DNA of 41,900 bases, from NCBI GenBank assembly GCA_030655955.1, contig JAUSOZ010000031.1, positions 1 through 41,900 on the forward strand. Reading direction: 5' to 3'. Below the pieces are notes generated by a model that was given only the letters and a program-made list of their open reading frames with translations, was not told the origin of the DNA and ran no database searches. Below, in pieces: positions 10,696-41,167 of this stretch; positions within the stretch are counted from its first letter, which is position 1; each line of letters starts with the position of its first letter. A program made the translations under genes and the position numbers. Origin of the DNA: Deltaproteobacteria bacterium. GTDB lineage: Bacteria > Desulfobacterota > Desulfobaccia > Desulfobaccales > 0-14-0-80-60-11.

Positions 10696-10722
10696 GTAGT
10701 GGTCAGTAGTCAGTAGTCAGTG
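10696..10722. repeat. Period-7 tandem repeat (GTCAGTA)n immediately after tetR
   Basis: gtcagta gtcagta gtcagtg read directly. Confidence 0.9.
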
Positions 10723-10910
10723 GTTTCTCTCGTTCCCAAGCTCCAGCTTGGGAACGCAACTTGGCGGTGAAGCTCTGCTTTGCCAAAATGTAGGGTGCGC
10801 ATCGCGCACCGACTTGGTGGGCAAGACGCCCGCCCTACTGGACTTTTCATGCTTTACGGGTGAGCCAAAGGCCCAGGAGCAACTGTTCCGAAAATTTTTT
10901 TGTTATCATG

Positions 10911-10926
10911 GTGACCAACCGGTCAT
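10911..10926. promoter_or_regulatory. Candidate TetR operator 15 nt upstream of mqnE start
   Basis: TGACC-AACC-GGTCA, near-identical to 10031-10046. Confidence 0.65.
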
Positions 10927-10941
10927 AAAGGAGGCAGGTTC

Positions 10942-12042
10942 ATGGTCTGGGGAGGCATCCAAGACCCGGCGCTTCAGCCAATTTATGAGAAAGTGGCGGC
11001 GGGGGCGCGTCTGAGCCGGGAAGACGGCGTCACCCTGTTCGACAGCCCCGATCTGTTGGGGGTGGGGCGCCTGGCCCAGATGGTCAAGGAACGTCTCCAC
11101 GGCCGCAAGGCCTACTATATCTATAATCAGCATATCAACTACTCCAACATCTGCGTCAATGGCTGCAAGTTTTGCGCTTTCGGGCGCAAGGCCGGGGAAC
11201 CCGGGGCCTACGAGATGAGCCTCCCGGAGATCTTTGCCAAGGTGGAGGCCAGAGCGCAGGAGCCCATTACGGAGATTCACATCGTGGGCGGCTGCCACCC
11301 GGACCTGCCTTTTACCTATTATCTGGACATGCTCCGGGGCATCAAGGCCCGGCGGCCGGAGGTTCACCTCCAGGCCTTCACCGCCGTGGAGGTGGCCCAC
11401 CTGGCCCAAAAGGCCGAAATGAGCCTGCCCGACACCCTGGCGGCCCTGAAAGAGGCGGGCCTGGGGTCGCTCCCCGGCGGCGGCGCCGAAGTCTTCAGTT
11501 CCCGGGTGCGCCAAAGCCTCTGCCCGGAAAAGCTCTCCCCCGAGGGCTGGATAGAGGTGGCCCAGATGGCCCACCGGCTCGACCTCAACACCAATGCCAC
11601 CATGCTCTATGGGCACCTGGAGAGCGCGGCGGAGCGGGTGGATCATCTTGTGAGGCTGAGGGAAGCTCAGGATGAGACCGGCGGCTTTTTGGCCTTCATT
11701 CCCCTGGCCTTCCATCCCGCCAACACCGGCTTGAGCGAGCTGGCCGGCCCCAGCGCCATCGACGACCTCAAGACCCTGGCCATCTCCCGGTTGATGCTGG
11801 ACAATTTTCCCCACATCAAGGCGTTTTGGGTGATGCTGGGCCCGAAACTCTCCCAGATTTCCCTGTGTTTCGGGGTGGACGACGTGGACGGCACGGTGAT
11901 GGAGGAGCGCATCACCCACATGGCCGGGGCCCAGACCCCCCAAGGCCTGACCCGGGCGCAACTGCAAGGGCTGATCCGGGAGGCGGGCTGCGAGCCGGTG
12001 GAACGGGATACCCTGTATAAGATAGTAGTCAGTAGTCAGTAG
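10942..12042 (+). CDS. mqnE: Aminofutalosine synthase (radical SAM)
   Basis: NQHINYSNICVNGCKFCAFGRK (CxxxCxxC), HIVGGCHPDLPFTYYLDMLR; neighbours mqnC, mqnA. Confidence 0.92.
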   Translation: MVWGGIQDPALQPIYEKVAAGARLSREDGVTLFDSPDLLGVGRLAQMVKERLHGRKAYYIYNQHINYSNICVNGCKFCAFGRKAGEPGAYEMSLPEIFAKVEARAQEPITEIHIVGGCHPDLPFTYYLDMLRGIKARRPEVHLQAFTAVEVAHLAQKAEMSLPDTLAALKEAGLGSLPGGGAEVFSSRVRQSLCPEKLSPEGWIEVAQMAHRLDLNTNATMLYGHLESAAERVDHLVRLREAQDETGGFLAFIPLAFHPANTGLSELAGPSAIDDLKTLAISRLMLDNFPHIKAFWVMLGPKLSQISLCFGVDDVDGTVMEERITHMAGAQTPQGLTRAQLQGLIREAGCEPVERDTLYKIVVSSQ

Positions 12043-12089
12043 TCAGAGGTCAGTTGGTTTAGTGAGACAAAACATTTATAGAGGTTAAG

Positions 12090-13112
12090 ATGATTTTCGG
12101 CCAGCGTCTGGATTGTGATGCAGCCCGGCAACTGTGGGACCTGGACCTCCTGACCTTGGGGGCCGCGGCCGATCAGGTGCGCCGGCGCCTCAATCCCGGC
12201 AACCGGGTCACCTTCGTCATCGACCGGAATATCAACTACACCAACATCTGCACCTCTGGCTGCCGCTTCTGCGCCTTTTACCGGCCTCCCGGGGCCGACG
12301 ACGGCTACGTCCTCACTTGGGAGGCGCTGGCGGCCAAACTGGTGGAACTCAAGGACCACGGCGGCAGCGGCGTCCTGCTCCAGGGCGGCCTCAATCCTGA
12401 TTTGCCACTGGCCTATTACCTGAAACTCGTGAGCTTCATCCGGGACTTCGGCCTGGCGGTCCACGGCTTCTCCCCGCCGGAGATTTTTTATGTGGCCGCA
12501 AACAACGCTCTCAGCCTGGAAGAACTGATTCGCCGCCTGATGGACGCGGGGCTGAGTTCCATCCCCGGGGGCGGGGCCGAGATCCTGGTGGACCGGGTGC
12601 GGCAGCAGATTTCGCCGCAAAAATGCTCGGCCTCCCAGTGGCTCGAGGTCATGGCCGCGGCTCACCGCGCCGGTTTAAAGACCAGCGCCACCATGATGTT
12701 CGGCCACCTGGAGACCCGGGCGGAACGGGTCGAACACCTGGTCAAGATTCGGCAACTCCAGGACGACACCGGCGGCTTCACCGCCTTCATCCCCTGGACC
12801 TACCAGCCCGGGGGCACGCACCTGGCGGGCCAGGCCCTGGGCGCGGTGGAGTACTTGAAAACCCTGGCCATCTCCCGCCTGGTGCTGGATAACGTGCCCC
12901 ACCTCCAGGTCTCCTGGGTGACCCAGGGACCCAAGGTGGCCCAGGTGGCCCTGAAATTCGGGGCCGACGACTTCGGCTCCACCATGCTGGAAGAAAACGT
13001 GGTGGCCGCCACCGGGGTGGGCTTCCACCTGACGCGGGCCGAAATCGACACCCTGATCCGGCAGTGCGGCTATGAGCCGCAGGTAAGGGATCATCGGTAT
13101 GACTTGGAGTGA
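12090..13112 (+). CDS. mqnC: Cyclic dehypoxanthinyl futalosine synthase (radical SAM)
   Basis: DRNINYTNICTSGCRFCAFYRPPG, LLQGGLNPDLPLAYYL, IPGGGAEIL; cluster context. Confidence 0.92.
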   Translation: MIFGQRLDCDAARQLWDLDLLTLGAAADQVRRRLNPGNRVTFVIDRNINYTNICTSGCRFCAFYRPPGADDGYVLTWEALAAKLVELKDHGGSGVLLQGGLNPDLPLAYYLKLVSFIRDFGLAVHGFSPPEIFYVAANNALSLEELIRRLMDAGLSSIPGGGAEILVDRVRQQISPQKCSASQWLEVMAAAHRAGLKTSATMMFGHLETRAERVEHLVKIRQLQDDTGGFTAFIPWTYQPGGTHLAGQALGAVEYLKTLAISRLVLDNVPHLQVSWVTQGPKVAQVALKFGADDFGSTMLEENVVAATGVGFHLTRAEIDTLIRQCGYEPQVRDHRYDLE

Positions 13113-13125
13113 GCAGTGAGCAGTA
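13109..13125. repeat. Period-7 repeat (GAGCAGT)n overlapping the mqnC stop codon
   Basis: gtgagcagtgagcagta; TGA stop 13110-13112 lies within it. Confidence 0.85.
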
Positions 13126-13127
13126 GA

Positions 13128-13450
13128 TGTGTAGGGCGGGCACTGCCCGCCATGCGGTCCGCACAGGCTGGAAAGCCTGTGCCACCGGAAAAACTTTTCA
13201 GGACAGTTGGTTATGGGACTATCTATTTCTGGTTCCCAAGCTCCAGCTTGGGAACCCCATTGCAGGCAAAGCTCCTGCTTTGCGAGAGAATCATCTATTT
13301 ATGGCGCCATGCGCCCCAAGCAGGAGCTTGGGGGAAATTTACGTTCCCAAGCAGGAGCTTGGGAACGAGGGAAAGGCGGGATGCGCTGCCTTTTCCCGCC
13401 CTACGGGCTACGGGCTGGCATGATGGTGCGTAGAACGCACCCTACGAAAG
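13128..13450. repeat. Mosaic of several palindromic intergenic repeats
   Basis: GTAGGGCGGGCACTGCCCGCC; GCACAGGCTGGAAAGCCTGTGC; GGTTCCCAAGCTCCAGCTTGGGAACC; CAAGCAGGAGCTTGGG twice; GGTGCGTAGAACGCACCCTAC. Confidence 0.85.
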
Positions 13451-13478
13451 ACTTTTCGGAACTGAAATAAGGATAGTT

Positions 13479-14345
13479 ATGAACCCAAAAATCGCCATCA
13501 TAGCCCGGGTGGGGGCGCACAAGGCCCTGGCGGCGGCGGGTTTGCAGCCGCACCACACCGAGGTTTACTCCACGCCCTATGGCGACAGCCGCCCGGTGCA
13601 TTGGTTCCGGCAGGGCGAGATTGATTTCGTGGTCCTGTCCCGGCACGGTGAGGCGGGCTACGAGATTTCGGCGCCGTTTATCAATGCCCGGGCCAATCTC
13701 TATGCCTTGAAGGCGCTGGGGGTGTCCAAGATCCTGGCCTGGGTGGCGCCGGGGTCGCTCAGGCAGGAGATGGCGCCGGGGGACCTGGTGGCGCCCCACG
13801 ACGTGCTGGACGAAGGCAAAGGCGGGCCCCACACCTTCTATGCCGGGGTGGGGTGGGGTTTTATAAGGCACCACCCCCTGTTCTGCCCGGAGCTGAGGGC
13901 GGCCATGCTGGGGGCGCTGGTAGATGTTCCCTTTACGGTGCACGACCGGGCGGTCTACGTGGCCACGACGGGCCCGCGCCTTGAGACCGCGGCGGAAATC
14001 CGCAAGTTCGGCCTCCTGGGGGGCGACCTGGTGGGCCAGACCCTGGCGCCCGAGGTCTTCCTGGCCCGGGAACTGGAGCTGTGTTATACGGCCCTGACCT
14101 ACGTGGTGAATTACGCCGAAGGCTTGCTGGACCGGCCGTATGCGCCCGGAGTGCTTTTTGAAGGGCTGGCCACCCCGGCGGAAATCGAGCGGGTGCGGGC
14201 GGTGGAAGCGGCCTGGCCGGAATTAATCATCCGGTTGCTGCCGGCCCTGGCGGGAACCTCCCGCCGCTGCCCCTGCCCCCGACTCATGGAACGCTACCGT
14301 CTCAGGGGCGATATCAATGACGATTGGCGGACTTGGGTAAGGTGA
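13479..14345 (+). CDS. MTAP/MTIP-family purine nucleoside phosphorylase-like protein; candidate futalosine-cleaving enzyme
   Basis: VVLSRHGEAGYEISAPFINARANLYALKALGVSKILAWVAPGSLRQEMAPGDLV, TTGPRLETAAEI, GQTLAPEVFLARELELCYTALTYVVNYAEG. Confidence 0.85.
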   Translation: MNPKIAIIARVGAHKALAAAGLQPHHTEVYSTPYGDSRPVHWFRQGEIDFVVLSRHGEAGYEISAPFINARANLYALKALGVSKILAWVAPGSLRQEMAPGDLVAPHDVLDEGKGGPHTFYAGVGWGFIRHHPLFCPELRAAMLGALVDVPFTVHDRAVYVATTGPRLETAAEIRKFGLLGGDLVGQTLAPEVFLARELELCYTALTYVVNYAEGLLDRPYAPGVLFEGLATPAEIERVRAVEAAWPELIIRLLPALAGTSRRCPCPRLMERYRLRGDINDDWRTWVR

Positions 14346-14412
14346 TGGGGGAAAAGGGAAAAAGGCGAAAAGGGGAAAGGGTGGAAAGAGGTAAATTCGC
14401 CATGATTGATAA

Positions 14413-14436
14413 CTACTGCTCACTGCTCACTGCTTA
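14413..14436. repeat. Period-7 repeat (TGCTCAC)n, inverted copy of 13109-13125
   Basis: ctactgctcactgctcactgctta. Confidence 0.85.
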
Positions 14437-14451
14437 CGGCGCACTTTATAA

Positions 14452-15651
14452 ATGATTGCGCATGTAAGCAAATGGGTCTTGCCGGTAAGCGGGCCTCCCA
14501 TCCGGGACGGGGCGGTGGTGGTGGCCGGCGACCGGATTGCCGCGGTGGGTCCGGCGGCGGAAGTTTTGACCGGCTTTACCGGTTTGATCTGCGACCACGG
14601 CGACGGCGCTATCCTGCCCGGGTTGGTGAATTGCCATGTGCACCTGGAGTTTTCGGCCCTGTCCGGAAAGGTGCTGCCCCAGGCGCGCTGGGAGGACTGG
14701 CTGGAGGCGACCCTGGCGGCGTATGGGGCGCTGTCTCCGGCAGAGGTGGAGGCGGGCATCGGCTGCGGCGTTGAAGCCTTGCGGCAAAGCGGCACCATCC
14801 TGGTGGGGGAGATCACCAACACCGGGGCCTCGTGGCCGTTTCTCACAACCGGCCCGCTGGCGTACCACCTGTTCTATGAGTGCCTGGGGTTCGATTTAGT
14901 TTCGACCTTCGACCTGCCGGAGAAATTTCCCTGGTTCGGGCGGCCTGAGGTCGCGGCCGCAGCCTGGGTTTCAGCTGCGGCCCATGCCCCCTATTCCGTG
15001 TCCCCCGCCTTGTTCCGGGCTGTGGCGGCGTGGAACACTGCCCGGTCGGGGCTGCAGACGGTGCACCTGGCCGAATCCCAGGCGGAAATTGACTTTCTGG
15101 CGAGAGGCAACGGCTTCTTTGAGGGCTTGCTGAAACGCCGGGGCCGCTGGGTTCAGGATTTTCAGCCCCCGGGGCCGGGTGCCGCGGCTTATCTCGAAGG
15201 TCTGGGATTTCTGGGGCCCCGGACCCTTACGGTCCACGGGACCCAGCTGAGCCCGGCGGATTGCGGCTGCCTGGCCGGAACCAAGACCTGGCTGGTGCTG
15301 TGCCCCCGGGCCAACCGCTACACCGGCGCCGGGGTGCCGCCGGTGCCGGAGTTGCTTAAGGCCGGGGTGAACCTGGCCCTGGGCACCGACTCCCTGGCGG
15401 GCAACTGGGACCTGAATCTCTTTGGAGAGATGCTCTGGCTCTACAAAAACTTTTCCGCCTATCCCGGTGATTTGTGGCTTCGCCTGGGAACTCTGAACGG
15501 CGCCCAAGCCCTTGGCCGGGACCGGGAACTCGGCAGTCTGGAACCCGGCAAGCAGGCTGCCCTGGGGTTCATTCCCCTTAAAGGCGGCCGGGATTTCTGG
15601 GGTGAACTCTTTACCAATGGGGCGGCCGGGAAGTGGCGCTGGCTGGGATGA
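14452..15651 (+). CDS. mqnX: Amidohydrolase-family deaminase; candidate aminodeoxyfutalosine deaminase
   Basis: LPGLVNCHVHLEF (HxH), AHAPYSVSP, TVHLAESQAEIDFL, LALGTDSLAGN; between mqnC and mqnA. Confidence 0.75.
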   Translation: MIAHVSKWVLPVSGPPIRDGAVVVAGDRIAAVGPAAEVLTGFTGLICDHGDGAILPGLVNCHVHLEFSALSGKVLPQARWEDWLEATLAAYGALSPAEVEAGIGCGVEALRQSGTILVGEITNTGASWPFLTTGPLAYHLFYECLGFDLVSTFDLPEKFPWFGRPEVAAAAWVSAAAHAPYSVSPALFRAVAAWNTARSGLQTVHLAESQAEIDFLARGNGFFEGLLKRRGRWVQDFQPPGPGAAAYLEGLGFLGPRTLTVHGTQLSPADCGCLAGTKTWLVLCPRANRYTGAGVPPVPELLKAGVNLALGTDSLAGNWDLNLFGEMLWLYKNFSAYPGDLWLRLGTLNGAQALGRDRELGSLEPGKQAALGFIPLKGGRDFWGELFTNGAAGKWRWLG

Positions 15652-15655
15652 CAAG

Positions 15656-15687
15656 AGCTGTCAGCTATCAGCGATCAGCTGTCAGCC
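15656..15687. repeat. Period-7 repeat, left arm of stop-to-start inverted pair
   Basis: agctgtcagctatcagcgatcagctgtcagcc. Confidence 0.9.
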
Positions 15688-15738
15688 AAGATAAAGCACT
15701 ATGGCCGTTTGGGGTCACCCCCAATCATGAAATTCCTT

Positions 15739-15766
15739 GTAGGGGCGGTTCGCGAACCGCCCCTAC
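15739..15766. repeat. 28-bp perfect palindrome GTAGGGGCGGTTCGCGAACCGCCCCTAC
   Basis: Identical copy at 37439-37466; near-identical copy at 28279-28306. Confidence 0.95.
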
Positions 15767-15879
15767 GGGTGGACTTTCACGATAAAGCAAGGAATGTTAG
15801 ATTGCGCCATGATTACTTTATTCGGCGGGCAGTGCCCGCCCTAGAGGTTCAGGTCGAGTTTCAATAATTTTTGGCTTTT

Positions 15880-15910
15880 GCTGAAAGCTGACCGCTGATA
15901 GCTGACAGCT
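15880..15910. repeat. Period-7 repeat, right arm, ends 18 nt before mqnA
   Basis: gctgaaagctgaccgctgatagctgacagct; complementary to 15656-15687 with about 2 mismatches. Confidence 0.9.
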
Positions 15911-15928
15911 ATTCAAAGGGAGACACCC

Positions 15929-16771
15929 ATGATGGCCAAGGCCCGGCTGGGGCGCATTGCCTATCTCAACGTGCTGCCCATCTATTTTGCCATGGAAAAC
16001 ATTTTTGGCGAAAACGGTTTCCACCTGGTACGGGGTACCCCGGCGGAACTCAACGCCTTGATGCGCCGGGGCGAGATGGACCTGGGCTCTATTTCCGCCC
16101 TGGAGTATGGGCGGGCTTTTCGAGATTATCTGCTCCTGCCCGACCTGTCCATCAGCGCCACGGGGGCGGTGGGCAGCGTGCTCCTGTTCAGCCGGGTGCC
16201 GTTTTCCCGGCTGGACGGGCGCCTCATCCGGGTCAGCGCCGCCTCGGCCAGCGGCGCCGCCCTGGTCAAAGTCCTGATGGCCGAACTCTTTGAGGTGGCC
16301 CCCCGTTACCAGCCGGGTCAACTGGCGGGCGTGCCCCTGGGGGACGTAGCCGCGGTCATGGCTATCGGCGACGAGGCCCTGCGCCTCTCCGCCGCGGGAA
16401 CCATGCCCTTCGAACTGGACCTGGGGCAGGCCTGGCAGGAACTCACCGGGCTGCCCTTTGTGTTCGGGGTTTGGGCGGTGCGCCGGGACTTTGCCGCCGC
16501 CGCGCCCGAGATCACCGACTCTCTGCACCGGCTGCTGCTGCGGTCCCGGGATTGGGGCCTGGGGTCTTTACCGGAGTTGAGCCGCATCGCCGCGGCCCAC
16601 TTCGGCATGACCCCGGCCCGGATTCTGGCGTATTTTCGTCAGCTCAACTACTCCCTGGACCCGGAACACGAGGAAGGTCTGGCTACTTTTTTCAATTATT
16701 TGTATAACCTGGGAGAAATGCCGGAAGAACCGCAACTTAATTATTTTGGGCCAAGACAAGTAGGCAGTTAG
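15929..16771 (+). CDS. mqnA: Chorismate dehydratase
   Basis: RLGRIAYLNVLPIYFAM, VRGTPAELNALMRRGEMDLGSISALEYG; cluster context. Confidence 0.92.
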   Translation: MMAKARLGRIAYLNVLPIYFAMENIFGENGFHLVRGTPAELNALMRRGEMDLGSISALEYGRAFRDYLLLPDLSISATGAVGSVLLFSRVPFSRLDGRLIRVSAASASGAALVKVLMAELFEVAPRYQPGQLAGVPLGDVAAVMAIGDEALRLSAAGTMPFELDLGQAWQELTGLPFVFGVWAVRRDFAAAAPEITDSLHRLLLRSRDWGLGSLPELSRIAAAHFGMTPARILAYFRQLNYSLDPEHEEGLATFFNYLYNLGEMPEEPQLNYFGPRQVGS

Positions 16772-16858
16772 CTTTTGTTATCGGGATTTTGGGTTATGGT
16801 GCGTGGGACGCACCCTACGGAGACAGCCGCTACCTGACTTTTGGCCTTTAAACCAAAA

Positions 16859-16889
16859 GTTGACCGCTGATAGCTGAAAGCTGACCGCT
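16859..16889. repeat. Period-7 repeat ending 17 nt before mqnL
   Basis: gttgaccgctgatagctgaaagctgaccgct. Confidence 0.85.
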
Positions 16890-16906
16890 TCTCCGAAGGA
16901 GAATAC

Positions 16907-18352
16907 ATGGGTTATCGGAATTTGCAGGAATTCATTACCCGCCTGGAGCAGGCTGGGGAGTTGGTGCGCATCAAGGAGCCGGTGAGCCCGTATCTGACGA
17001 TTACCGAAATCACCGACCGGGTCTCCAAGGCCGGCGGCCCGGCCCTGTTGTTCGAAGCGGTGCCGGGCTATGACATGCCGGTGCTGATGAACGCCTTCGG
17101 GTCCATGCGGCGTATGTGCCTGGCGTTGGAGGTTGCGTCCCTGGATGACATCGCCACCGACCTCCTGAGCTTCATGGAGGCGGAAGCCAACACCCTGATG
17201 AAAAAGCTCAAGCTCATTCCCAAGCTGGCCCGCCTGGGCCGGATGTTCCCCAAAGAGGTGTCCAAGGCGCCGTGCCAGGAGGTTATCCTCAGAGGCGAGG
17301 ACGCGGACCTGACCAAGATCCCGGTCCTGACCTGCTGGCCCGGGGACGGCGGCCCCTTCATCACCCTGCCGGTGGTGTTTACCCATCACCCGGAGACCGG
17401 GAAGCGCAACGTGGGCATGTACCGCCTCCAGGTTTATGACGCCCGGACCACCGGCATGCACTGGCACGCCCACAAGGGCGGGGCCCAGCATTACCGGATC
17501 GCGGAGTCCCGGGGCGAGGCGCTGCCGGTGGCGGTGGCCATCGGGCCCGACCCCGCTGTGACCTATGCGGCCACCGCCCCGCTGCCGGAAGATATTGACG
17601 AGATTCTCTTTGCCGGGTTCCTTAGGGGAGAACCGGTGGAAATGGTGCCGTGCGTCACCCAGCCTTTGAGTGTGCCGGCGGCATCCCAGATCGTCCTGGA
17701 AGGTTACGTGGCGCCGGGGGAGAAGCGGGTGGAAGGCCCGTTCGGCGACCACACCGGCTATTACTCCCTGGCGGATGACTACCCGGTGTTCCATCTCACC
17801 GCCATCACCCGGAGGCGGGACGCCGTTTATCCGGCCACCATCGTGGGGCGCCCCCCCATGGAAGACTGTTTCATGGCCAAGGCTACGGAGCGCATCTTCT
17901 TCCCCCTGATGCAAAAAACCCTGCCGGAGATGGTGGACATGAACCTGCCGGTGGAGGGGGTCTTCCACAACCTGGCCTTTATCTCCATCGACAAACGCTA
18001 TCCCGGCCACGCCCGCAAGGTGATGCACGCCATCTGGGGCATGGGGCAGATGATGTTCACCAAGATCATTATTATTTTCGACAAGGAAATTGACGTGCAG
18101 GACCTGTCCCAGGTGCTGTGGCGCTTAGGGAACAACGTCGACCCGCGCCGGGACGTGGTGTTCGCCGATGGGCCGGTGGATGCCCTGGACCATGCCTCGC
18201 CCCTGCCCCGCTACGGCTCCAAGATGGGGATCGACGCCACCCGGAAATGGCCCGAGGAAGGGTTCACCCGGCCCTGGCCCGAAGTGATCCACATGGACCC
18301 GGAAATCAAGCGCCAGGTGGATGAGCTCTGGCCGCGCCTGGGGCTGGCATGA
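16907..18352 (+). CDS. mqnL: UbiD-family decarboxylase of the futalosine pathway
   Basis: GYRNLQEFITRLEQAGELVRI start; EGPFGDHTGYYSLADDYPVFHLTAITRRRDAVYPATIVGRPPMED. Confidence 0.92.
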   Translation: MGYRNLQEFITRLEQAGELVRIKEPVSPYLTITEITDRVSKAGGPALLFEAVPGYDMPVLMNAFGSMRRMCLALEVASLDDIATDLLSFMEAEANTLMKKLKLIPKLARLGRMFPKEVSKAPCQEVILRGEDADLTKIPVLTCWPGDGGPFITLPVVFTHHPETGKRNVGMYRLQVYDARTTGMHWHAHKGGAQHYRIAESRGEALPVAVAIGPDPAVTYAATAPLPEDIDEILFAGFLRGEPVEMVPCVTQPLSVPAASQIVLEGYVAPGEKRVEGPFGDHTGYYSLADDYPVFHLTAITRRRDAVYPATIVGRPPMEDCFMAKATERIFFPLMQKTLPEMVDMNLPVEGVFHNLAFISIDKRYPGHARKVMHAIWGMGQMMFTKIIIIFDKEIDVQDLSQVLWRLGNNVDPRRDVVFADGPVDALDHASPLPRYGSKMGIDATRKWPEEGFTRPWPEVIHMDPEIKRQVDELWPRLGLA

Positions 18353-18909
18353 ATCGCTACGTGGTGGCCATCACCGGGGCCTCGGGCATGATCTACGCCC
18401 GGGAACTGCTGGCCTATTTCGCCGGCCGCCCGGACCTGGAATTGCACGCCGTGATCTCCGGGGCCGGGGAGCAGGTGTTGGGCCTGGAGTTGGGGACCAC
18501 CCCGGCGGCTCTGGCTCCCGGGGCCATCTGGCACCGGGTGGACGACTTCACTTCGGGCCTGGCCAGCGGCTCGTTTCGGGCCCGGGCCATGGTGGTGATC
18601 CCCTGCTCCATGGGATCGCTGGGGGCCATCGCCACCGGGGTGGGCCGCAACCTGATCCACCGGGCTGGGGAGGTCTTTCTGAAAGAGCGGCGGCCCTTGA
18701 TCCTGGTGGTGCGGGAGACGCCTTTGAGCCTCATCCACTTGCGGAACCTGGCCCGGGCGGCGGAGGCGGGGGCCACCATTTTTCCGGCCTGCCCCGGGTT
18801 CTATCACCGGCCCCAGAATCTGGATGAACTGGCCCGCCAGTTTGCCGGGCGCGTCCTGGATCACCTGAGGCTTTCGCATCACCTGACCCGGCGCTGGGGC
18901 GAGGGTTGA
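18349..18909 (+). CDS. mqnM: UbiX-family flavin prenyltransferase
   Basis: VVAITGASGMIYARELL, MVVIPCSMGSLGAIATGVGRNLIHRAGEVFLKERRPLILVVRETPLSLIHLRNL, FPACPGFY; ATGA overlap with mqnL. Confidence 0.93.
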   Translation: MNRYVVAITGASGMIYARELLAYFAGRPDLELHAVISGAGEQVLGLELGTTPAALAPGAIWHRVDDFTSGLASGSFRARAMVVIPCSMGSLGAIATGVGRNLIHRAGEVFLKERRPLILVVRETPLSLIHLRNLARAAEAGATIFPACPGFYHRPQNLDELARQFAGRVLDHLRLSHHLTRRWGEG

Positions 18910-18945
18910 CCCGGGGAAAACTCGCACCTACCGGAGGGAGCTTCT

Positions 18946-19452: not shown

Positions 19453-19455
19453 GTA

Positions 19456-20361: not shown

Positions 20362-20398
20362 AGCAGAGATTTTTTTTATCATATTAAAGATTTTCTCC

Positions 20399-22377: not shown

Positions 22378-22378
22378 G

Positions 22379-23255: not shown

Positions 23256-23290
23256 CGGGTTCTGGGTTTTAGGTTTTGGGTTTTGGGTCC
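23256..23290. repeat. Period-7 repeat (GGGTTTT/GGGTTCT), left arm
   Basis: gcgggttctgggttttaggttttgggttttgggtc. Confidence 0.9.
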
Positions 23291-23346: not shown

Positions 23347-23380
23347 GAAACCCAGAACCTAAAACCCAGAACCCAGAACC
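23347..23380. repeat. Period-7 repeat, right arm, ends 9 nt before livF
   Basis: gaaacccagaacctaaaacccagaacccagaacc; complementary to 23256-23290. Confidence 0.9.
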
Positions 23381-24118: not shown

Positions 24119-24163
24119 AGGGGGCAAAAGGGGAAAAGGCGAAAAGGGCAAAAGGGGGAAAAA
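24119..24163. repeat. Period-8 repeat (AAAAGGGG-like), left arm
   Basis: ggggcaaaaggggaaaaggcgaaaagggcaaaaggggg. Confidence 0.85.
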
Positions 24164-24340: not shown

Positions 24341-24383
24341 GCTTTTCTCTTTTCGCCTCTTCCCCTTTTCGCCTTTTTCCCCC
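24341..24383. repeat. Period-8 repeat, right arm, ends 11 nt before livG
   Basis: gcttttctcttttcgcctcttccccttttcgcctttttccccc. Confidence 0.85.
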
Positions 24384-24394: not shown

Positions 24395-25159
24395 ATGCTT
24401 GAAGTCAACGGGTTAAGCAAATCTTTCGGGGGCGTCCAGGCCCTGACCGACGTCTCCTTTGCGGTGGCCGCGGGAGAGATCGTCGGGTTGATCGGCCCCA
24501 ACGGCGCCGGCAAGACCACCTGCTTCAACCTGATTAACGGCTTGCTGCCCCCCAGCGCCGGCGAAATCCGGCTGGGAAGCACGGAGATGGTGGGCCTGCC
24601 CCCCTATCGCCGGGCCCGCCTGGGGCTCGCCCGCACCTTCCAAAATATCCAGCTCTTCGGGGGCATGACCGTGCTGGAAAACGTCCTCACCGGCTATCAC
24701 CTCCACCAGCAAGTGGGAGTGTTTGCCGCCCTCCTGCCGCTGCCGATGGTGAGCCGGGCCCGGGCTGAAAATCGCCGGTTGGCCTTAGAATTCCTGGAAC
24801 TGGTGGGCCTGGGGGGCAAGGAGGACGAGCCTGCCGAGGCCCTGGCCTACGGCGACCAGCGGCGTTTGGAAATCGCCCGGGCCCTGGCTCAGCAACCGCA
24901 GTTTCTGCTCATGGACGAGCCCGCCGCCGGCCTCAACCCCCGGGAGACCGAGGACCTCATGGCCTTGATGGAGAAACTCCTGCCCCTGGGCATTACCCTG
25001 CTGGTCATCGAACACGACATGACCCTGGTCATGGGCCTGTGCCACCGGATCGTCGTCCTGGACCACGGCGAGGTCATCGCCGCCGGCGCCCCCCGGGACA
25101 TCCGCCGGGACCCCCGGGTCATCGAGGCCTACCTGGGCCGGGAAGAGGATGAGCCGTAA
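24395..25159 (+). CDS. livG: Branched-chain amino-acid-type ABC transporter ATPase LivG
   Basis: GPNGAGKTTCFNLINGLLPPSAGEI; LARTFQNIQLFGGMTVLENV; YGDQRRLEIARALAQQPQFLLMDEPAAGLNP. Confidence 0.94.
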   Translation: MLEVNGLSKSFGGVQALTDVSFAVAAGEIVGLIGPNGAGKTTCFNLINGLLPPSAGEIRLGSTEMVGLPPYRRARLGLARTFQNIQLFGGMTVLENVLTGYHLHQQVGVFAALLPLPMVSRARAENRRLALEFLELVGLGGKEDEPAEALAYGDQRRLEIARALAQQPQFLLMDEPAAGLNPRETEDLMALMEKLLPLGITLLVIEHDMTLVMGLCHRIVVLDHGEVIAAGAPRDIRRDPRVIEAYLGREEDEP

Positions 25160-25317
25160 GCAGTAAGCAGTAGGGGCGGGCGTCCCGCCCGCCGCCTTTG
25201 GTGGCACAGGCTTCCAGCCTGTGCGCGGTGCCGAGAACTTTTCGGAACAGCGAGCCGCGCGCCGTAAGGGGTCAGGGGGTAAGACAGAGAATAGCCTAAG
25301 ATCGGAGGTCGGCTTCA

Positions 25318-25348
25318 CACCGAAAACCGAAAACCGAAAACCGAAAAC
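25318..25348. repeat. Period-7 repeat (CCGAAAA)n ending 11 nt before the PaaK-like gene
   Basis: caccgaaaaccgaaaaccgaaaaccgaaaac. Confidence 0.9.
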
Positions 25349-31035: not shown

Positions 31036-31064
31036 TCGGTTCGCCCTGGGCGATATTTTTCAAG

Positions 31065-32785: not shown

Positions 32786-32898
32786 TGAGGTACAGGTGTC
32801 GCATTCTCCATGGCAGGCTCATGGTGCGTGAGACGCACCCTACTTTTTGTGACTTCGCTCGGATAATAATTCGCATTCAAAAGGGAACTATCTACATG

Positions 32899-32957
32899 TA
32901 GGGGTGCACCTGTGTGTGCGCCCTGGTTGAGGGCGGACACGCAGGTCCGCCCCTACG
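32899..32957. repeat. Intergenic palindromic repeat of the 5037-5096 family
   Basis: GTAGGGGTGCACCTGTGTGTGCGCCC ... GGGCGGACACGCAGGTCCGCCCCTAC. Confidence 0.85.
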
Positions 32958-32974
32958 TAACCTGTCGTATCAAT

Positions 32975-34147: not shown

Positions 34148-34857
34148 CCACCCTGGTTTTGTTCCACGGCTGGGGCGCCTCCGGCCGGGTTTGGGAACGA
34201 CAGGCCGCGGCCTTCGGCGACCGGATGCCGGTCTTGACGCCCACGGTGCCGGTCTGGGAGGTGGACTGGTTGGCTGAGTATTTACGGGGATTGGACCTGC
34301 AAGAATGCCTGCTGGTGGGGTGGTCCCTGGGAGGCATGCTCCTCCTGGAGGCCCTCAGCCAGCTGACGGACCCGCCGCCTAACGGGCTGGTCCTGGTGGG
34401 GGTGGCCCCGGTCTTTACTCAACGTCCCGATTACCCCTGGGGACAACCCCCGGCCGTGGTCCGGGCCATGCGCCGGGCTCTTATGAAAAATATGAAAAAT
34501 CCGCCGCAGGTGCTGGCTGAGTTTGCCGAACAGTGCCTGGCCCCGGGGGAGGCGGCATTTGCTTCCCAGGCCCGGGAGGCGTTTGCGGTTCCGGCAGGCG
34601 CCGGGACCCTGGCGGCAGGCCTCGATTATTTGTTGCGGCGTGACCTGAGGCCCCTGCTTGCCAGCCTGCCCGCCGGGGCAGTGGTCATCCAGGGGCAGGC
34701 GGACCGGATCGTGGACCCGGCCCAGGGACGGTTCCTGCAGGAACAGCTTCCCGGGGCCCGGCTCCATCTTCTGCCGGCAGCCGGGCATCTCCCCTTTCTG
34801 ACCCAGGCGGCGGCTTTTAACGGGATATTAGAGCAATGCTTGAGCACGGCGAGCTAA
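34144..34857 (+). CDS. bioH: BioH-like alpha/beta hydrolase (pimeloyl-ACP methyl ester esterase candidate)
   Basis: TLVLFHGWGASGRVWE, LLVGWSLGGMLLLEAL, AAGHLPFLTQ; overlaps bioF and bioC. Confidence 0.8.
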   Translation: MTTLVLFHGWGASGRVWERQAAAFGDRMPVLTPTVPVWEVDWLAEYLRGLDLQECLLVGWSLGGMLLLEALSQLTDPPPNGLVLVGVAPVFTQRPDYPWGQPPAVVRAMRRALMKNMKNPPQVLAEFAEQCLAPGEAAFASQAREAFAVPAGAGTLAAGLDYLLRRDLRPLLASLPAGAVVIQGQADRIVDPAQGRFLQEQLPGARLHLLPAAGHLPFLTQAAAFNGILEQCLSTAS

Positions 34858-35696
34858 AGATGCAGTTCGAGTTGGGACCTCTATCCTTCCTGGAGGATGA
34901 TCGGGAAGTCAAACAGGGCATCAGACGCAATTTTGCCCGGCGAGCCCGGTCCTATGACCGGCATGCCGAGATGCAGCGCCGCATGGCCCACGGACTGGTG
35001 GCGGCGGTGGGAGACGTGCTGGCCCGGGCCGGGCGTATCCTCGAGATCGGCTGCGGCACCGGTTATCTCACCGGCCTCCTCCGGCAGGCCAACCGGGAGG
35101 CCCGGCTGGTGGCTCTCGACCTGGACGCCGCCCTGGTGGATGCGGCCCGGCGGCGCCTGGGACCGGAGGCGGGGGTGGCGTGGCTGGTGGCGGACGGGGA
35201 GACCCCGCTCCGGGGCGAGTATGACCTGATTATCGCCAACGCCACCTTCCAGTGGTTCACCCGCCCCGAAGAGACCCTGGCGGCCTTATACCGGAATTTG
35301 GCTCCCGGAGGCGTCCTGGCCTTCTCCACCCTGGGACCCCAAACCTTTCAGGAACTGGCCGAGTCCTTGAACCGGGCCGCCCGAAACCTGAACCTCCCGG
35401 CGCTCCCCCCGATTCCGGCCCAAGGATTTGGCGATCGGGAGAGCTGGTCCGAGCGCTTATATCGGGCCGGATTCCCTCAGGTCCGGCTGGCCCGGGAAAT
35501 GGCCACCGCCACCTTCCCCTCGGTTAAGGAGTTTCTCCAGGCCCTCCAGGCCACGGGAGCCACCAACCCCCGGCCCGGCCAATTTTCTCCCCGCCTGCTG
35601 CACGCCCTCATCGCGGCGTATCAGACCAACTACGGCAGCGACGGCGCCATCCCGGTAAGCTACGAAATGATCTGGGCGGTGGCCGAAAAATATTGA
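34836..35696 (+). CDS. bioC: Malonyl-ACP O-methyltransferase
   Basis: IRRNFARRARSYDRHAEMQRRMA; ILEIGCGTGYLTGLL; ANATFQWF; LAFSTLGPQTFQEL. Confidence 0.92.
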   Translation: MLEHGELKMQFELGPLSFLEDDREVKQGIRRNFARRARSYDRHAEMQRRMAHGLVAAVGDVLARAGRILEIGCGTGYLTGLLRQANREARLVALDLDAALVDAARRRLGPEAGVAWLVADGETPLRGEYDLIIANATFQWFTRPEETLAALYRNLAPGGVLAFSTLGPQTFQELAESLNRAARNLNLPALPPIPAQGFGDRESWSERLYRAGFPQVRLAREMATATFPSVKEFLQALQATGATNPRPGQFSPRLLHALIAAYQTNYGSDGAIPVSYEMIWAVAEKY

Positions 35697-35709
35697 AGGC
35701 AGTTTTTGA

Positions 35710-35757
35710 GGGGAGGCCGGGGGAAGCCCTTACGAAAACTTCCCCCGGACCTCCCCT
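35710..35757. repeat. Inverted repeat between convergent bioC and HPF-CSD genes
   Basis: GGGGAGGCCGGGGGAAG ... CTTCCCCCGGACCTCCCC. Confidence 0.85.
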
Positions 35758-35883
35758 CCCATCCCCCTGTATGGGGGTGGGGGAGAGGCCAAGAGCCTTG
35801 GGTTCATGGCCCATCATGTGTAAATAGGTTGTAAGCGCATTCGGTCAGGAGCGGGCGCTCCTGACCTCCTCCCTCAAAAATTC

Positions 35884-36414
35884 TTACAGCGGCTGGACCC
35901 AGATGGCCTGGGGGCCCTGGTCCCCGGCCTCCTGGGTGAATTTCACTGGCGTGCCCGGCGTCAGGTGGCTGAACTTGCCTTTCTTTACCGCGTGGGCGTG
36001 GAAGTAGACCTCCAGGCCCTCGTCGCTTTCGATAAAGCCGTAGTCGTCATCCAGGAAAAGACGCACCACCCTCCCCCGTTGGGCAACTTCTTCGTGGGTT
36101 TTGATTTGCTGTTGGACAACCTGTGAGTGCTCGGCCAAGCGGCGGTCCAGGACGTCAAAAGCCTCCGAGGTCAGAGGAATGACCATTTCGCCCTGCCGCA
36201 TTATGGTGATGGTGTCTCCGGGGATGGAGACCACCAGGTGGACCTCGAAGGCCCCGAGCCGGTGGTGGGCCGTGCCGATGATTTCCACCCGGGCGTGGAG
36301 GATGGGGTCGTGATAGTGTTTCTGCAGGCGGGCCAGTTCTTCCTCAATCTTTTCCCGCCACTCGGGCAGGATTTCCAGATTACGGCCTTCAATATGAACA
36401 TCCTGGGGCAGCAT
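35884..36414 (-). CDS. HPF/RaiA-like ribosome-associated domain fused to a cold-shock domain
   Basis: N-part MLPQDVHIEGRNLEILPEWREKIEEELARLQKHYHDPILHARVEI; C-part GRVVRLFLDDDYGFIESDEGLEVYFHAHAVKKGKFSHLTPGTPVKFTQEAGDQGPQA. Confidence 0.85.
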   Translation of the reverse strand: MLPQDVHIEGRNLEILPEWREKIEEELARLQKHYHDPILHARVEIIGTAHHRLGAFEVHLVVSIPGDTITIMRQGEMVIPLTSEAFDVLDRRLAEHSQVVQQQIKTHEEVAQRGRVVRLFLDDDYGFIESDEGLEVYFHAHAVKKGKFSHLTPGTPVKFTQEAGDQGPQAIWVQPL

Positions 36415-36545
36415 CGAGCACCTCCTGTGGAATACGCAACTCATTAATTATTAAGAGTTGAAACCGTGCTTGTCAATCGGCGTCCGCTTATCAGGACGGG
36501 TGGCGGGGTCAGGGTGTCGAGGGGGAGAAGGGGAGATGTCTGGGG

Positions 36546-37421
36546 TTACTGCGTGCCGATGAAGAACGGGCGGAAGGTGGACTCGTCCTGGCACAGGGCC
36601 CGGCGCAGGGCCTCGAGCATGGCGTCCCGGTCCTCGGGCAGCCGGCCATTGATGTCGAGATAGTTGGTGTAGTGGTCGCTGGTAACCTGCGTGGGCGTCG
36701 TGATCTGCGACAGAAGAGTCATGGTTTCTGTGAGCGCCTGATGCGGGCTAAGCATCTGAAACCGCCCAGCCTGGACGTCGGCCAGCAAGGGGGTGTTGAC
36801 CTTGGGGACGAAGGTCCTGAGGCGCACCACCGCCGGATGCATATCGCTAATGACCCGGGCGGTTTCCCGGGCGTGGGTCTCGGAACGGTCCTGGCCGCCG
36901 ATTCCCACCATGACGTAGGCGTTGATCTTCAGGTCCGCGGCCCGGGCCATGTGGCCCGCCCGGATGTGGTCCTGGGCGGTAGCGCCTTTTTTGATTCGGG
37001 TCAGGATGACGTCGTCGCCGGATTCCACCCCGACGTGAATCCGCCCCAACCCGGCCTGGGCCAGGGTCTGAAGCTGATCCGGACCTTTGCGGTGGATGTA
37101 CTGGGACGAACCGTAGACCGTGATCCGCTCCAACCGGGGAAAGAAGGTGTAGCTGTAACGGCAGATTGCTGCCAGGGCCGCGGTCGGCATGGCGATGGTG
37201 TTGCCGGCGGGGAAAAACAGGGTGCGCACCCGGGCGCCATAAGTTGCCGCGGCATCAATCAGGTCGGCCTTGATCTCAGAGACCGGCCTCACCTTGAACT
37301 TCACGCCGTCTTTATAAACCATGCAAAAGGTGCAGAGGTTGTGGGGGCAACCCACGGTGGCCTGGACGAGCAGGCTGTCGGCTTCACTGGGGGGCCGGTA
37401 AATGGGGCCGTCGTAGCGCAT
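36546..37421 (-). CDS. Radical SAM protein (Elp3/HemN-like); likely start at 37421
   Basis: VGCPHNLCTFCMVYKDGVKFKVRPVSEIKADL; GRIHVGVESGDD. Confidence 0.85.
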   Translation of the reverse strand: MRYDGPIYRPPSEADSLLVQATVGCPHNLCTFCMVYKDGVKFKVRPVSEIKADLIDAAATYGARVRTLFFPAGNTIAMPTAALAAICRYSYTFFPRLERITVYGSSQYIHRKGPDQLQTLAQAGLGRIHVGVESGDDVILTRIKKGATAQDHIRAGHMARAADLKINAYVMVGIGGQDRSETHARETARVISDMHPAVVRLRTFVPKVNTPLLADVQAGRFQMLSPHQALTETMTLLSQITTPTQVTSDHYTNYLDINGRLPEDRDAMLEALRRALCQDESTFRPFFIGTQ

Positions 37422-37438
37422 GGAGAGGTGCCGGGGGC

Positions 37439-37466
37439 GTAGGGGCGGTTCGCGAACCGCCCCTAC
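37439..37466. repeat. 28-bp perfect palindrome GTAGGGGCGGTTCGCGAACCGCCCCTAC
   Basis: Identical to 15739-15766. Confidence 0.95.
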
Positions 37467-37591
37467 GGTCGAAGTCATAGTTATGTATATTATAACACAT
37501 CCTGGGAGAGACCACCGCAGTGACCGGCAACGACGCCGATTCCCGCAGGCCGGCCCGGCCCTGATTATGTACTGGGCAGGGCTGGGGATTA

Positions 37592-38911
37592 ATGGTAGTA
37601 TGTCTGTGTCTAAACCAAGTTAGGTGCAAGCAATACGTGGGAGCCAGGCACGAATCCATCATCTGTCCCGGTTGCGGCTGCCTCTGTGACGACCTGGATG
37701 TCACCGTCGACGGGGACCGGATTGTCGAGGTCAGCAATGTCTGCCTCTGGGGCGTGAGCCGCTTTTTCCACGCCAAAAAATTTCATCCCAAGAAAGAGCG
37801 TCACCGCCTGCGTGAGCCCGTGGTCCGTCATCGAGGGCGCCGGGAGACGGTGCCGTATGAGGCAGCCCTGGCGGAGGCGGCCCAGGTGCTGAGCCGGGCC
37901 CGCCGGCCGATCATCTAGGGGCTGACCAATTCCGGTTCCTGGGCCCAGGAAGCGGCCCTGAAACTGGCCTGCAGTTTACGAGCCCGGCTGGAACCGGCGG
38001 ATCTGGCCTTCAAGGCCCCCTACTACCAGAGCATCCAAGAGCACGGCCTGGCCTGGGCCCCCCTGGAGGTCATCCGGGATGAGGCCGACACGGTGCTGTT
38101 CTGGGGCGCCAATCCCATCCACTCCGCCCCCCGGCACGTGGTGCGCTACGCCGTCTTTGCCCGGGGCCGCTTCACCGAACGGGGTATTGAAGACCGGCAG
38201 ATGGCGGCGGTGGACATCTACCCCACCGAGCTGGCCCGGTTCTGCCCTCTGTTTATCAAGATCAACCCCGGGCAGGAAGTGGATCTGGTTGCCGGAGTCG
38301 CGGCCATCCTGGCCGGGGAGCCGCCGCCCGACCCCGTGGTCCGGGGCACCCGGCGGCTGGCCAAATTTCTGGCCGCTGCCTCCTGTGGAGTCATTTTTTG
38401 CGGCCGGGGGGTCAGTTATGGCCCGGGCCTGGAACTGTTTGACCGGCTGGCCCGCCTGGTGGCACTGCTCAATCAGCAGGCGAGGTTTTTCCTGTTTCCC
38501 CTGTCCGGCGACTTCAACTCCAACGGGCTGTACCATCTGCTGCTCAATGAGACGGGCCAGGCCGGGGCGCCGGATTTCGGGACGGGGGAGGTGGTGACCC
38601 ACTACACCCCGATGGATTTCCGGGAGGTGGACGCGGTCTTGGTCGCCGGGGCGGATTTATTGTGGTTTTTGCCGGACGAACAGGTGGAGGATCTGAAGCG
38701 CCGCCGGGTGCCGATCGTGGCCTTGAGCCCGTTTGCCAACCGGACCACCGGCCAGGCCGCGGTTATCTTGCCCACGGCCCTGGCCGGCATTGAGACGGCC
38801 GAGGTGGCCTATCGGATGGATGGGTTGCCCCTGGTCCTGAAGCAGCTGGTGGACTCGGCGCTGCCTCCGGACCACCAGGTGCTCACGGACCTGCAGCGGT
38901 TGATCGGGTGA
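37592..38911 (+). pseudogene. FwdB/FmdB-like formylmethanofuran dehydrogenase subunit B, interrupted by one in-frame TAG (37916-37918); alternative start GTG 37637
   Basis: IICPGCGCLCDDLDVTVDGDRIVEVSNVC; ...RRPII*GLTNSGSWAQEAALKLA...; VLFWGANPIHSAPRHVVRY; both halves in the same frame. Confidence 0.8.
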
Positions 38912-38957
38912 TTCAGGTTTGGGACTGGTGGCGACTGGCGATCAACCAAATGATTCC

Positions 38958-39018
38958 CGTAGGGGCGGACCTGTGTGTCCGCCCTCTTTGAGGCTGCACG
39001 CGCCAATACGCTCCTACG
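38958..39018. repeat. Intergenic palindromic repeat of the 5037-5096 family
   Basis: CGTAGGGGCGGACCTGTGTGTCCGCCC ... CTCCTACGG. Confidence 0.8.
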
Positions 39019-39104
39019 GCGTATCTTGATAGATTGATATGTTGCAAATAGATACCCTAAAGCTGATCGTGGGTTGCTGATCAGAGACCCGGGAGCACCG
39101 CACC

Positions 39105-40478
39105 ATGCGCCTTAAAATTGCCGGGGGACGCCTGTATGATCCAACCTGCGGCTTAGACGGTGAGGCCGGCGACCTCTACGTCGAAGACGGGCGGCTGGTG
39201 GCCCCGCTCCCCGAGGTGGACCGGGAGATCGAGGCCCGGGGTCAGATAGTGACGCCGGCGGGAATTGAGCTCCGGGGTCAGGTGGCCACCTACGGCCTCA
39301 ACTTTTTGCGTTTAACCGACGGGGCGCCTTCTCTCCGGGAATTGGGGGAGAGCTATGCCCTCCTGGGATATACCCATGTGCACGAGCCCTTTTTGACGGG
39401 CTTAACCGCGGGCTACGTCCAGCGCCAGCTGGCGGGCCTGCCCGTGGTGGACACCTCCGCCTCCCTGGTCCTCAACCTGCGGGAACTCGACCAGTGGCTG
39501 CGGTTTCCGGAGCTTCTTCCCGAAGTGGGGCAAACCCTCTTATATCTGCTGGACGAGACCCGGGCCCTCAATTTCCGGGTGGTGGAGCCCTTTGTCCGGT
39601 ACCGGCAGGGTTTTTACGCCCATCGCACCATCGAACCGGAGCCAACCCTGGAGATATTGGCCCACCTGTCCCGGATCACCGGGGCGCCCCTGTCCGTGGA
39701 GGCCTCCCCTGAGGTGCTGCGGGCCCGCCTGCCGGAGCCTGGGGCCTTTCATCTGGCCGCCCTGGGCCCGGCGCTGACGGCCGATGACCTGGTGGAGGCC
39801 GCCCTGGCCCATCTGGAGGCGGGGGCCACGGGGGACCTGGGGCTCATGCTCCCCGGACGAAAGAATGGGCCGACCCGGCTGCCGGTCCGGATAGACCTGG
39901 GGTGGTTCCGCTCCCTGGACCTCAACCCGGCGTTGGATGAGGCCGCAGGCCGGCGGGCCCTGGCCCTGGCCCTGTGCTGCCAGGGTTCCCAGGCAGCCTT
40001 TTCCGGGGCCGGGATGGCCCAGGCGCCGGTGAGCGAATACCCCCGGATGTTCTCCTGGCTGTGGGACCACGCCGCCCGCCGGCAGGATTGGCATGATGAC
40101 CTGGGGGCGCGGCGCTATTCGCTGTCGGACTGGGTCTGGGCCACCCGGGCCCTGCCCGCCCGGCTGCTGGGCCTTGAGGACCGGGGCCGTCTGAGCTTGG
40201 GCGCCCGGGCCGACGTGGCTATCTATGACGTGCCGGCGTACGCCCCCCCCGGCCAGTGGCACCATTACCTGGGCCGCTGCCGCACCCTGCTCAAGGCCGG
40301 GGAAGTCGTGGTGGACAACTTTAGCCTGGTAAATCCCGAGGCGCCCCGGGCCACGTATTACCGGCAAACCGGGGCCGAGGCCACCCCTATGCTGGCGGAA
40401 ATTTGCCAGTTCCAGAGTTTGCGCCGGGAAAACCTCTGGGTTAAGGAAGGTCTGGGCGGACCCTGGGTGGGAGTTTAG
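39105..40478 (+). CDS. FwdA/FmdA-like formylmethanofuran dehydrogenase subunit A, metal ligands apparently lost
   Basis: Amidohydrolase ends (IAGGRLYDP...; LEDRGRLSLGARADVAIYDV), GYTHVHEPFL, SEYPRMFSWLWDHAARRQDW; next to FwdB-like gene. Confidence 0.75.
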   Translation: MRLKIAGGRLYDPTCGLDGEAGDLYVEDGRLVAPLPEVDREIEARGQIVTPAGIELRGQVATYGLNFLRLTDGAPSLRELGESYALLGYTHVHEPFLTGLTAGYVQRQLAGLPVVDTSASLVLNLRELDQWLRFPELLPEVGQTLLYLLDETRALNFRVVEPFVRYRQGFYAHRTIEPEPTLEILAHLSRITGAPLSVEASPEVLRARLPEPGAFHLAALGPALTADDLVEAALAHLEAGATGDLGLMLPGRKNGPTRLPVRIDLGWFRSLDLNPALDEAAGRRALALALCCQGSQAAFSGAGMAQAPVSEYPRMFSWLWDHAARRQDWHDDLGARRYSLSDWVWATRALPARLLGLEDRGRLSLGARADVAIYDVPAYAPPGQWHHYLGRCRTLLKAGEVVVDNFSLVNPEAPRATYYRQTGAEATPMLAEICQFQSLRRENLWVKEGLGGPWVGV

Positions 40479-40481
40479 AAA

Positions 40482-40522
40482 CAGGTTTTAGGTTTTAGGT
40501 TCTGGGTTCTGGGTTTTGGGTT
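40482..40522. repeat. Period-7 repeat (AGGTTTT/GGGTTCT)
   Basis: aggttttaggttttaggttctgggttctgggttttgggtt. Confidence 0.9.
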
Positions 40523-40603
40523 ATTTGAGAGTGGGATTATGAAGTAATTATTCCCCGGAGGGTTCGATTGGTGGCACTAACAATAGGGCAAATGGCGTAA
40601 GGT

Positions 40604-41053
40604 ATGGCCACGGCAGAAGAACTCCTGGAATTTTTGCCCGGCACCGATTGCCGGCAGTGCGGCTTCATCTGCGCCGAGTTTGCCGGGTTGCTTCTGGCCC
40701 GGGAACGGCCGCCGGAGGACTGCCCGGTCCTCCATGAGCCCGACTATGCCGGGTTTATCGAGGCCTTGCACGAACTCCTGGGACCTTCGGCTTCGGCGGC
40801 GGGGATGCGCATCGACCCGGAAAAATGCAACGGCTGCGGCATCTGCGTGGCCATGTGCGAATTCCACCTGGGAAACTGTGATGCGGCCCGGCTGGGCAAG
40901 GGGCCCCGGCCCCAGGACCAGATGGTCTTCCACGTGGTCAACGGCACGGTGGTGGTGGTCCGCCAGGAACTGTGCACCCGGTTGGTCCAGGCGGCGGAGA
41001 AGTGCAGCAAGTGCGCCCAGTACTGCCCCACCGAGGCCATTGAGTTGTTTTGA
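40604..41053 (+). CDS. 4Fe-4S protein with N-terminal FeS (CODH/ACS gamma-like) motif and ferredoxin domain
   Basis: LPGTDCRQCGFICAEFAGLLLARERPPEDC; KCNGCGICVAMCEF; KCSKCAQYCPTEAIELF. Confidence 0.8.
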   Translation: MATAEELLEFLPGTDCRQCGFICAEFAGLLLARERPPEDCPVLHEPDYAGFIEALHELLGPSASAAGMRIDPEKCNGCGICVAMCEFHLGNCDAARLGKGPRPQDQMVFHVVNGTVVVVRQELCTRLVQAAEKCSKCAQYCPTEAIELF

Positions 41054-41054
41054 T

Positions 41055-41080
41055 CAGCAGTTAGCGGTTAGCAGTTAGTA
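41055..41080. repeat. Period-7 repeat (GCAGTTA), left arm
   Basis: cagcagttagcggttagcagttagta. Confidence 0.85.
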
Positions 41081-41138
41081 ACCCTATTGAACTGATAAAT
41101 TTATTGCGCCTGGATAGTGCTCATGATTTTTTTTTATG

Positions 41139-41167
41139 GCTAATAGCTAACTGCTAACAGCTGAAGG
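41139..41167. repeat. Period-7 repeat, right arm, ends 6 nt before the hdrC-like gene
   Basis: ggctaatagctaactgctaacagctgaag. Confidence 0.85.

Follow-up and report, generated by a model that had tools for sequence, protein, structure and literature searches.

Paired heptad repeats at operon junctions of a Desulfobacterota genome are probably the ends of an S23p-linked class of insertions

Paired heptad arrays in the intergenic gaps of this genome are probably the ends of a class of insertions that is linked to the protein S23p and resembles the intervening sequences (IVS) of 23S rRNA. The paired arrays in the window, by which we mean the whole analyzed stretch of 41,900 nt, would be ORF-less members of this class that are tolerated at operon junctions. 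As part of the same explanation, and with the same confidence, the ends of a unit are likely to be fixed in their period (7, sometimes 8) and in their mutual complementarity rather than in their sequence. A sequence-only reading of the window had described the arrays as "clamps": arms that begin at a stop codon, inverted partners that end just before the next start codon, and a stem that joins the two. Much of that description stands, including the arms, their locus-specific pairing, and a predicted stem that would bring the stop codon of one gene close to the Shine-Dalgarno sequence of the next. The idea of a dedicated stop-to-start device does not, given that all types of gene border are used, words are swapped wholesale between related genomes, and a unit that one congener has may be missing from another. 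What is new here is the identity of the units to which the arms belong; the rule that places arrays at gene borders has already been published (PMC4692102).

The source genome, of which the window is a part, is a 3.5 Mb draft in 323 contigs from the Desulfobacterota, and its nearest named relatives are metagenome-assembled genomes of Desulfobaccales, Desulfobacca, Syntrophobacterales or Deltaproteobacteria. Arrays in the window were located with TRF, and gene borders are the calls of a simple home-made gene caller. Every array listed by the sequence-only reading was found, within a few nucleotides of where it had been placed. Four gaps hold complementary arms, all on the + strand, and in each of them RNA folding gives a minimum-energy structure that pairs arm to arm, with 23–36 arm-arm pairs and z scores of −2.9 to −8.3. 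In the livM-livF gap, the left arm (word GGGTTTT, 23257..23288) pairs with the right arm (AACCCAG, 23349..23380) over 30 pairs (z −7.2). The livF-livG gap has arms of period 8, GGGGAAAA at 24122..24161 and CTTTTCGC at 24341..24383 (36 pairs, z −4.1). The gap at 15652, before an mqnA-like menaquinone-biosynthesis gene (PF02621), has AGCTATC at 15656..15686 and GCTGACA at 15880..15910 (29 pairs, z −8.3), and the gap at 41054, between an FeS gene and a Fer4 gene, has AGCAGTT at 41056..41078 and GCTAACA at 41139..41162 (23 pairs, z −2.9). From these folds we infer that the stem would also form in vivo.

The remaining arrays in the window, likewise on the + strand, are single or unmatched. The array scan, in addition to TRF, places AGTAGTC at a stop codon (10698..10721, partnerless) and again overlapping one (12024..12054), AGTGAGC at a stop codon (13108..13124), GCTGAAA, an array of the right type, ahead of the start codon of a UbiD-family gene (16866..16884), and AGGTTTT / GGGTTCT after a stop codon (40483..40522, partnerless). 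The pairing test covers a period-8 purine array 3′ of a stop codon (14349..14381), which fails to match ACTGCTC, located before a start codon at the far end of its gap (14415..14445); it also covers AGCAGTA at a stop codon (25152..25172), whose partner is unmatched, and ACCGAAA before a start codon (25319..25348). RNA folding gives no such stem in the unmatched gaps at ~14346 and ~25160, nor for the single arrays near 10696 and 40479. Of the arrays listed by the sequence-only reading, several single ones (10696 and 40482 among them) lack a partner, and at ~14345 and ~25159 the two arms fail to match each other. The gap at 14345-14451 holds two arrays of different word classes, and the same mismatch is seen in the congener G002, so this gap may contain two half-units.

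Arrays of this kind are common across the source genome. A scan of 744 kb for period-7 and period-8 arrays, of the sort that the sequence-only reading had proposed, found 54 period-7 arrays in gaps versus 0.6 in dinucleotide shuffles (~90-fold) and 6 period-8 arrays versus 0.2, together with 38 period-14 arrays; genes in the same 744 kb contain 5 period-7 arrays. The shuffled gaps rule out chance as the origin of the arrays, which fall into at least seven word classes. Where do the arrays lie? Across 1.97 Mb of the order, 178 of 232 arrays lie 30 nt or less from a gene border, where ~99 would be expected at random; the random placement that the sequence-only reading had set against its own claim is not seen. 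Distances from the array edge peak at 0–10 nt for stop codons and at 5–20 nt for start codons, the latter leaving space for a Shine-Dalgarno sequence. Read outward from the ORF, the strand sense of the word is constant at 44 of 45 family-assigned borders (27/28 at stops, 17/17 at starts), and so the arms are complementary at both ends of any type of gap. For example, two-arm cases occur in a convergent gap (L130:4911-5147) and in a divergent one (L042:16747-17050). Counts of near-border arrays per gap are 152/814 for codirectional, 18/130 for convergent (stop-stop) and 7/142 for divergent (start-start) gaps, the divergent gaps being poor in arrays (Fisher p 1.3e-5). We have therefore dropped a strict stop-to-start rule, because arms are also found at stop-stop and, rarely, at start-start gaps. 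Border hugging remains, and stop-to-start placement is a special case of the border rule published for the heptamers of Xanthomonas and Nostoc (PMC4692102).

The arms pair above chance, locus by locus, as had been claimed. In 44 two-arm gaps, the mean pairing score is 17.9 within a gap versus 8.1 when arms are swapped between gaps, a difference reached in 0 of 5000 permutations, and the direct-sense match is 4.6. This arm-swap test excludes a small dictionary of words as the sole cause of pairing. Comparison of orthologous liv gaps shows that the word differs between genomes and that both arms shift together. At livM-livF, the arms are GGGTTTT in the source genome and G003, CAGTGGT in G001, CGGTTTT in G011 and G017, CGTTTTT in G018 and G019, and GGTCTTC in G014. 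At livF-livG, they are GGGGAAAA in the source genome, G001, G004, G009, G010 and G019, AGCTNTC in G011, G014, G017 and G018, and of a non-heptad CCGCCGAT type in G003 and G021. At these gaps, arms pair if they come from the same genome or from genomes that share a word class, and not if their classes differ, which means that both arms have been replaced together at one junction. The livF-livG space is absent in G005, G006, G007, G013 and G016, and is 6 nt long in G008. At the livF-livG gap of L011 and L018, the inverted arms are those of another unit (CCGCCGAT..., not period 7), which suggests a second type of arm.

Whole units also come and go. At two same-genus junctions, a space of 5 or 10 bp in one genome corresponds in the other to a complete armed unit, consisting of a heptad array, an ORF for a four-helix bundle (S23p), and an inverted heptad array. 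In one pair, TAA and ATG enclose the arms and S23p in the source genome and only GGCAC in G001 (TAA-GGCAC-ATG); L051:12611 is the reverse case. These two are the only clean empty sites found, most presence/absence differences in array-bearing gaps being changes inside gaps that are already wide. No target-site duplication is discernible at TAA-GGCAC-ATG, where divergence would hide one.

The ORF inside armed units belongs to PF05635, the 23S rRNA-intervening sequence protein (S23p), which has a solved relative in 2GSC (XCC0516). The family is absent from the window and has three genes elsewhere in the source genome. Complementary arms enclose all three genes, with another word class at each one (CCGTTTT, AGTAGTC and GGGTAAAA); these are the same classes that occur at ORF-less gaps. 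Among 54 PF05635 ORFs from Desulfobacterota, a sample of the best-scoring loci per genome rather than a random draw, 41 are flanked by arms that complement each other (z>4) and 38 by an array on either side, compared with 7 and 2 of 300 random genes from the source genome. The z scores come from shuffles and vary slightly from run to run (26/31 versus 25/31). Flanks have a period of 7 (74 flanks), 14 (62) or 8 (8), with 0–2 for any other period. PF05635 is on the same strand as both neighbors at 34 of 38 loci. In cyanobacteria, S23p genes that run antisense to their neighbors also occur. For PF05635, dN/dS values of 0.05–0.16 indicate purifying selection. Phyla beyond Desulfobacterota were sampled by way of plasmids and viral contigs. 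Arms, mostly of period 7, flank 11 of 16 plasmid loci (Nostoc, Calothrix, Geminocystis, Trichormus and others) and 13 of 20 viral-contig loci, and in both sets the word varies locus by locus.

Within the family of the source genome, array presence tracks PF05635 count (Fisher p 0.002, for one word class only), and the commonest word class is missing from most genomes that have no more than two matches. Array count correlates weakly with PF05635 count (Spearman 0.40, p 0.06), and G009 has a single match yet is rich in arrays. Dozens of armed gaps lie in one fifth of the source genome versus three PF05635 genes in all of it. Since armed gaps far outnumber these genes, and most clamps have no cargo, the origin of the ORF-less clamps is something that we infer: they would descend from S23p-bearing units.

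The same architecture interrupts a 23S rRNA gene. On an Azospirillum plasmid (L287), a 23S gene (RF02541, 899 bits) is broken near model position 1218 by the arms GACGGATGACAGAGGACGGAGGAC / GTCCTCTGTCTTCTGTCATCCGTC around S23p. An S23p ORF is known in the 23S IVS of Coxiella, Leptospira, Xanthomonas and Brucella, and in Coxiella it lies inside an inverted-repeat stem that is cut by RNase III (PMC4990558). The Coxiella IVS also has tandem heptamers, two to three copies of GACAGAT plus a degenerate one, 5′ of the ORF, and heptamers are noted in that paper for Coxiella alone. The units described here thus resemble IVS in their complementary, stem-forming ends (four window gaps fold and 44 two-arm gaps pair) and in the S23p ORF between the arms, as in the heptamer-bearing IVS of Coxiella and the armed Azospirillum example. 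They differ in that the units of the window are located between genes for proteins, L287 alone being within 23S rRNA, and in that the window units lack the S23p ORF, are numerous, and vary in word from locus to locus. Because PF05635 genes are enclosed by such arms across phyla, and even inside 23S rRNA, we favor an insertion element that is tolerated at junctions over a coupling device of the host.

How might such units behave? Some would carry the gene for the S23p (PF05635) four-helix bundle, while most would be ORF-less. Units would occupy the narrow stop-to-start spaces of operons, with the ribosome-binding site kept after the right arm, and settling in such short junctions would explain why arms end at gene borders. 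In mRNA, the arms may form a stem of 23–36 pairs, as in the 23S IVS, and by analogy with rRNA this stem would probably be cut by RNase III. We propose that co-transcription with the operon, together with a stem long enough for RNase III, makes the insertion harmless, as it is in rRNA. S23p may serve to maintain the units or to move them. This picture is supported by the strand that PF05635 shares with its neighbors, by the purifying selection on it, by the shortage of arrays in divergent gaps, and by the tie between PF05635 count and the commonest word class in the family of the source genome.

Other explanations have points in their favor. A host device, in which the stem is selected for re-initiation coupling from the stop codon to the ribosome-binding site, for insulating cistrons or for protecting mRNA ends, and S23p enters by chance, would account for paired arms with strong predicted folds in just the places where such a device is expected. 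It would also fit the retention of complementarity while words diverge over a saturated synonymous distance. We nonetheless consider it unlikely: such arms are also found in stop-stop gaps, in start-start gaps and inside 23S rRNA, they are wholly missing at the same junction in congeners, and G005, G013 and similar genera run the same liv operon with neither livF-livG space nor arms.

A neutral DNA process seems somewhat less likely still. Here, slippage would make the heptads, template switching between inverted arms would keep them complementary, and selection would purge them from genes and promoters. Homogeneous units within each array, the joint change of both arms, and the depletion of divergent gaps are all in keeping with this, but it leaves unexplained why 44 of 45 border arrays strictly face outward, why there is a specific tie to PF05635 in several phyla, and why clean empty sites exist. 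Much the least probable is that the arrays act as single-stranded G-quadruplexes or protein-binding sites, as proposed for related repeats (Rehm 2015; MacGregor 2015). Some words, such as GGGTTTT and GGGGAAAA, are indeed rich in G, and some arrays stand alone and unpaired; however, the commonest words (AGTAGTC, AGCTGTC and AGTGAGC) lack the required G-runs, and words are interchangeable at one locus. As a general account of the arrays, G-quadruplexes were rejected because the words are not G-rich.

The proposed S23p-linked insertion class invites comparison with several described repeats. The heptamers of Xanthomonas and Nostoc (GGGAATC / GGGGA(C/T)T) are intergenic and within 50 bp of gene borders, lie on the coding strand after stops and on the non-coding strand before starts, and include many inverted pairs and few cases at divergent gaps (Rehm 2015, PMC4692102). 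The arrays of the window genome share the period of 7, confinement to gaps, proximity to borders, outward orientation and inverted pairs with these heptamers and with the STRRs of cyanobacteria. They differ in having at least seven classes, matched arm to arm at each locus, where the published heptamers have a single G-rich motif in each genome, interpreted as a G-quadruplex. The likeness to cyanobacterial STRRs that the sequence-only reading had pointed out is correct, and it is probably meaningful, as S23p genes in cyanobacteria are enclosed by arms of this type too. TAACTGA repeats of Beggiatoaceae, cyanobacteria and Bacteroidetes form arrays just before start codons, and a regulator of translation has been proposed to bind them (MacGregor 2015, PMC4679880). 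They have the strand sense of the right arms here, with a few toward stop codons, and differ in using a single word, usually in one array per gap. A text search for S23 found no mention in either heptamer paper (PMC4692102, PMC4679880), and literature searches found no paper that ties intergenic heptad repeats to S23p. Classical transposons and MITEs differ in that the present copies share no common terminal inverted repeat, each arm best matching its own partner.

S23p/PF05635 is homologous to Avd, the accessory protein of diversity-generating retroelements (PMC10053308), a likeness at the level of the protein; the PF05635 proteins of the source genome match the bAvd model (PF22296) weakly, with a best E of 1.3e-6 that is below its cut-off. 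This kinship permits an RNA route and does not demonstrate one. A broader and more tentative proposal, which we hold to be possible rather than probable, is that S23p is the dedicated factor of a widespread insertion class in which period and self-complementarity, and not sequence, define the ends, and that it recognizes and propagates heptad stems, perhaps via RNA. The rRNA IVS, cyanobacterial STRRs, Xanthomonas heptamers and window clamps would then be one phenomenon. Intergenic heptameric repeats and 23S rRNA IVS are two old puzzles that were handled separately in the literature searched, and a common architecture of heptad arms around S23p offers both a single explanation. For S23p, which is conserved but has no known role, it would supply a substrate that can be tested, and a unit that moves without a fixed terminal sequence would represent a novel form of insertion element.

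Several further observations concern the loci surveyed. At L277, L284, L286 and L250, PF05635 lies between cas6 and cas4 (two cyanobacterial plasmids) or between cas10 and cmr3, and within this set it also adjoins repeats that resemble a CRISPR array. About 12 PF05635 copies and fragments, some in tandem and several with stop codons, cluster at G024:C1:3064838-3086641. At L052 13221-13644, a strong inverted repeat that is not of the heptad kind (TTGACGGCAACTTGGTAT..., z 13.8) encloses a small secreted-protein-like gene. Loop sequence was considered as a common core of the element and rejected, palindromic repeats being present in 36 of 55 gaps with arrays and 140 of 354 without. The loop of one clamp in the window (15692-15786) is a dispersed repeat of ~95 bp with at least 20 more copies at 82–95% identity, mostly in G003. 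Dispersed palindromic REP-like repeats (for example, GTAGGGTGCGC...GCGCACC) lie at 25174-25226, 10816-10898 and 13226-13374, and such repeats recur genus-wide, occupying many gaps.
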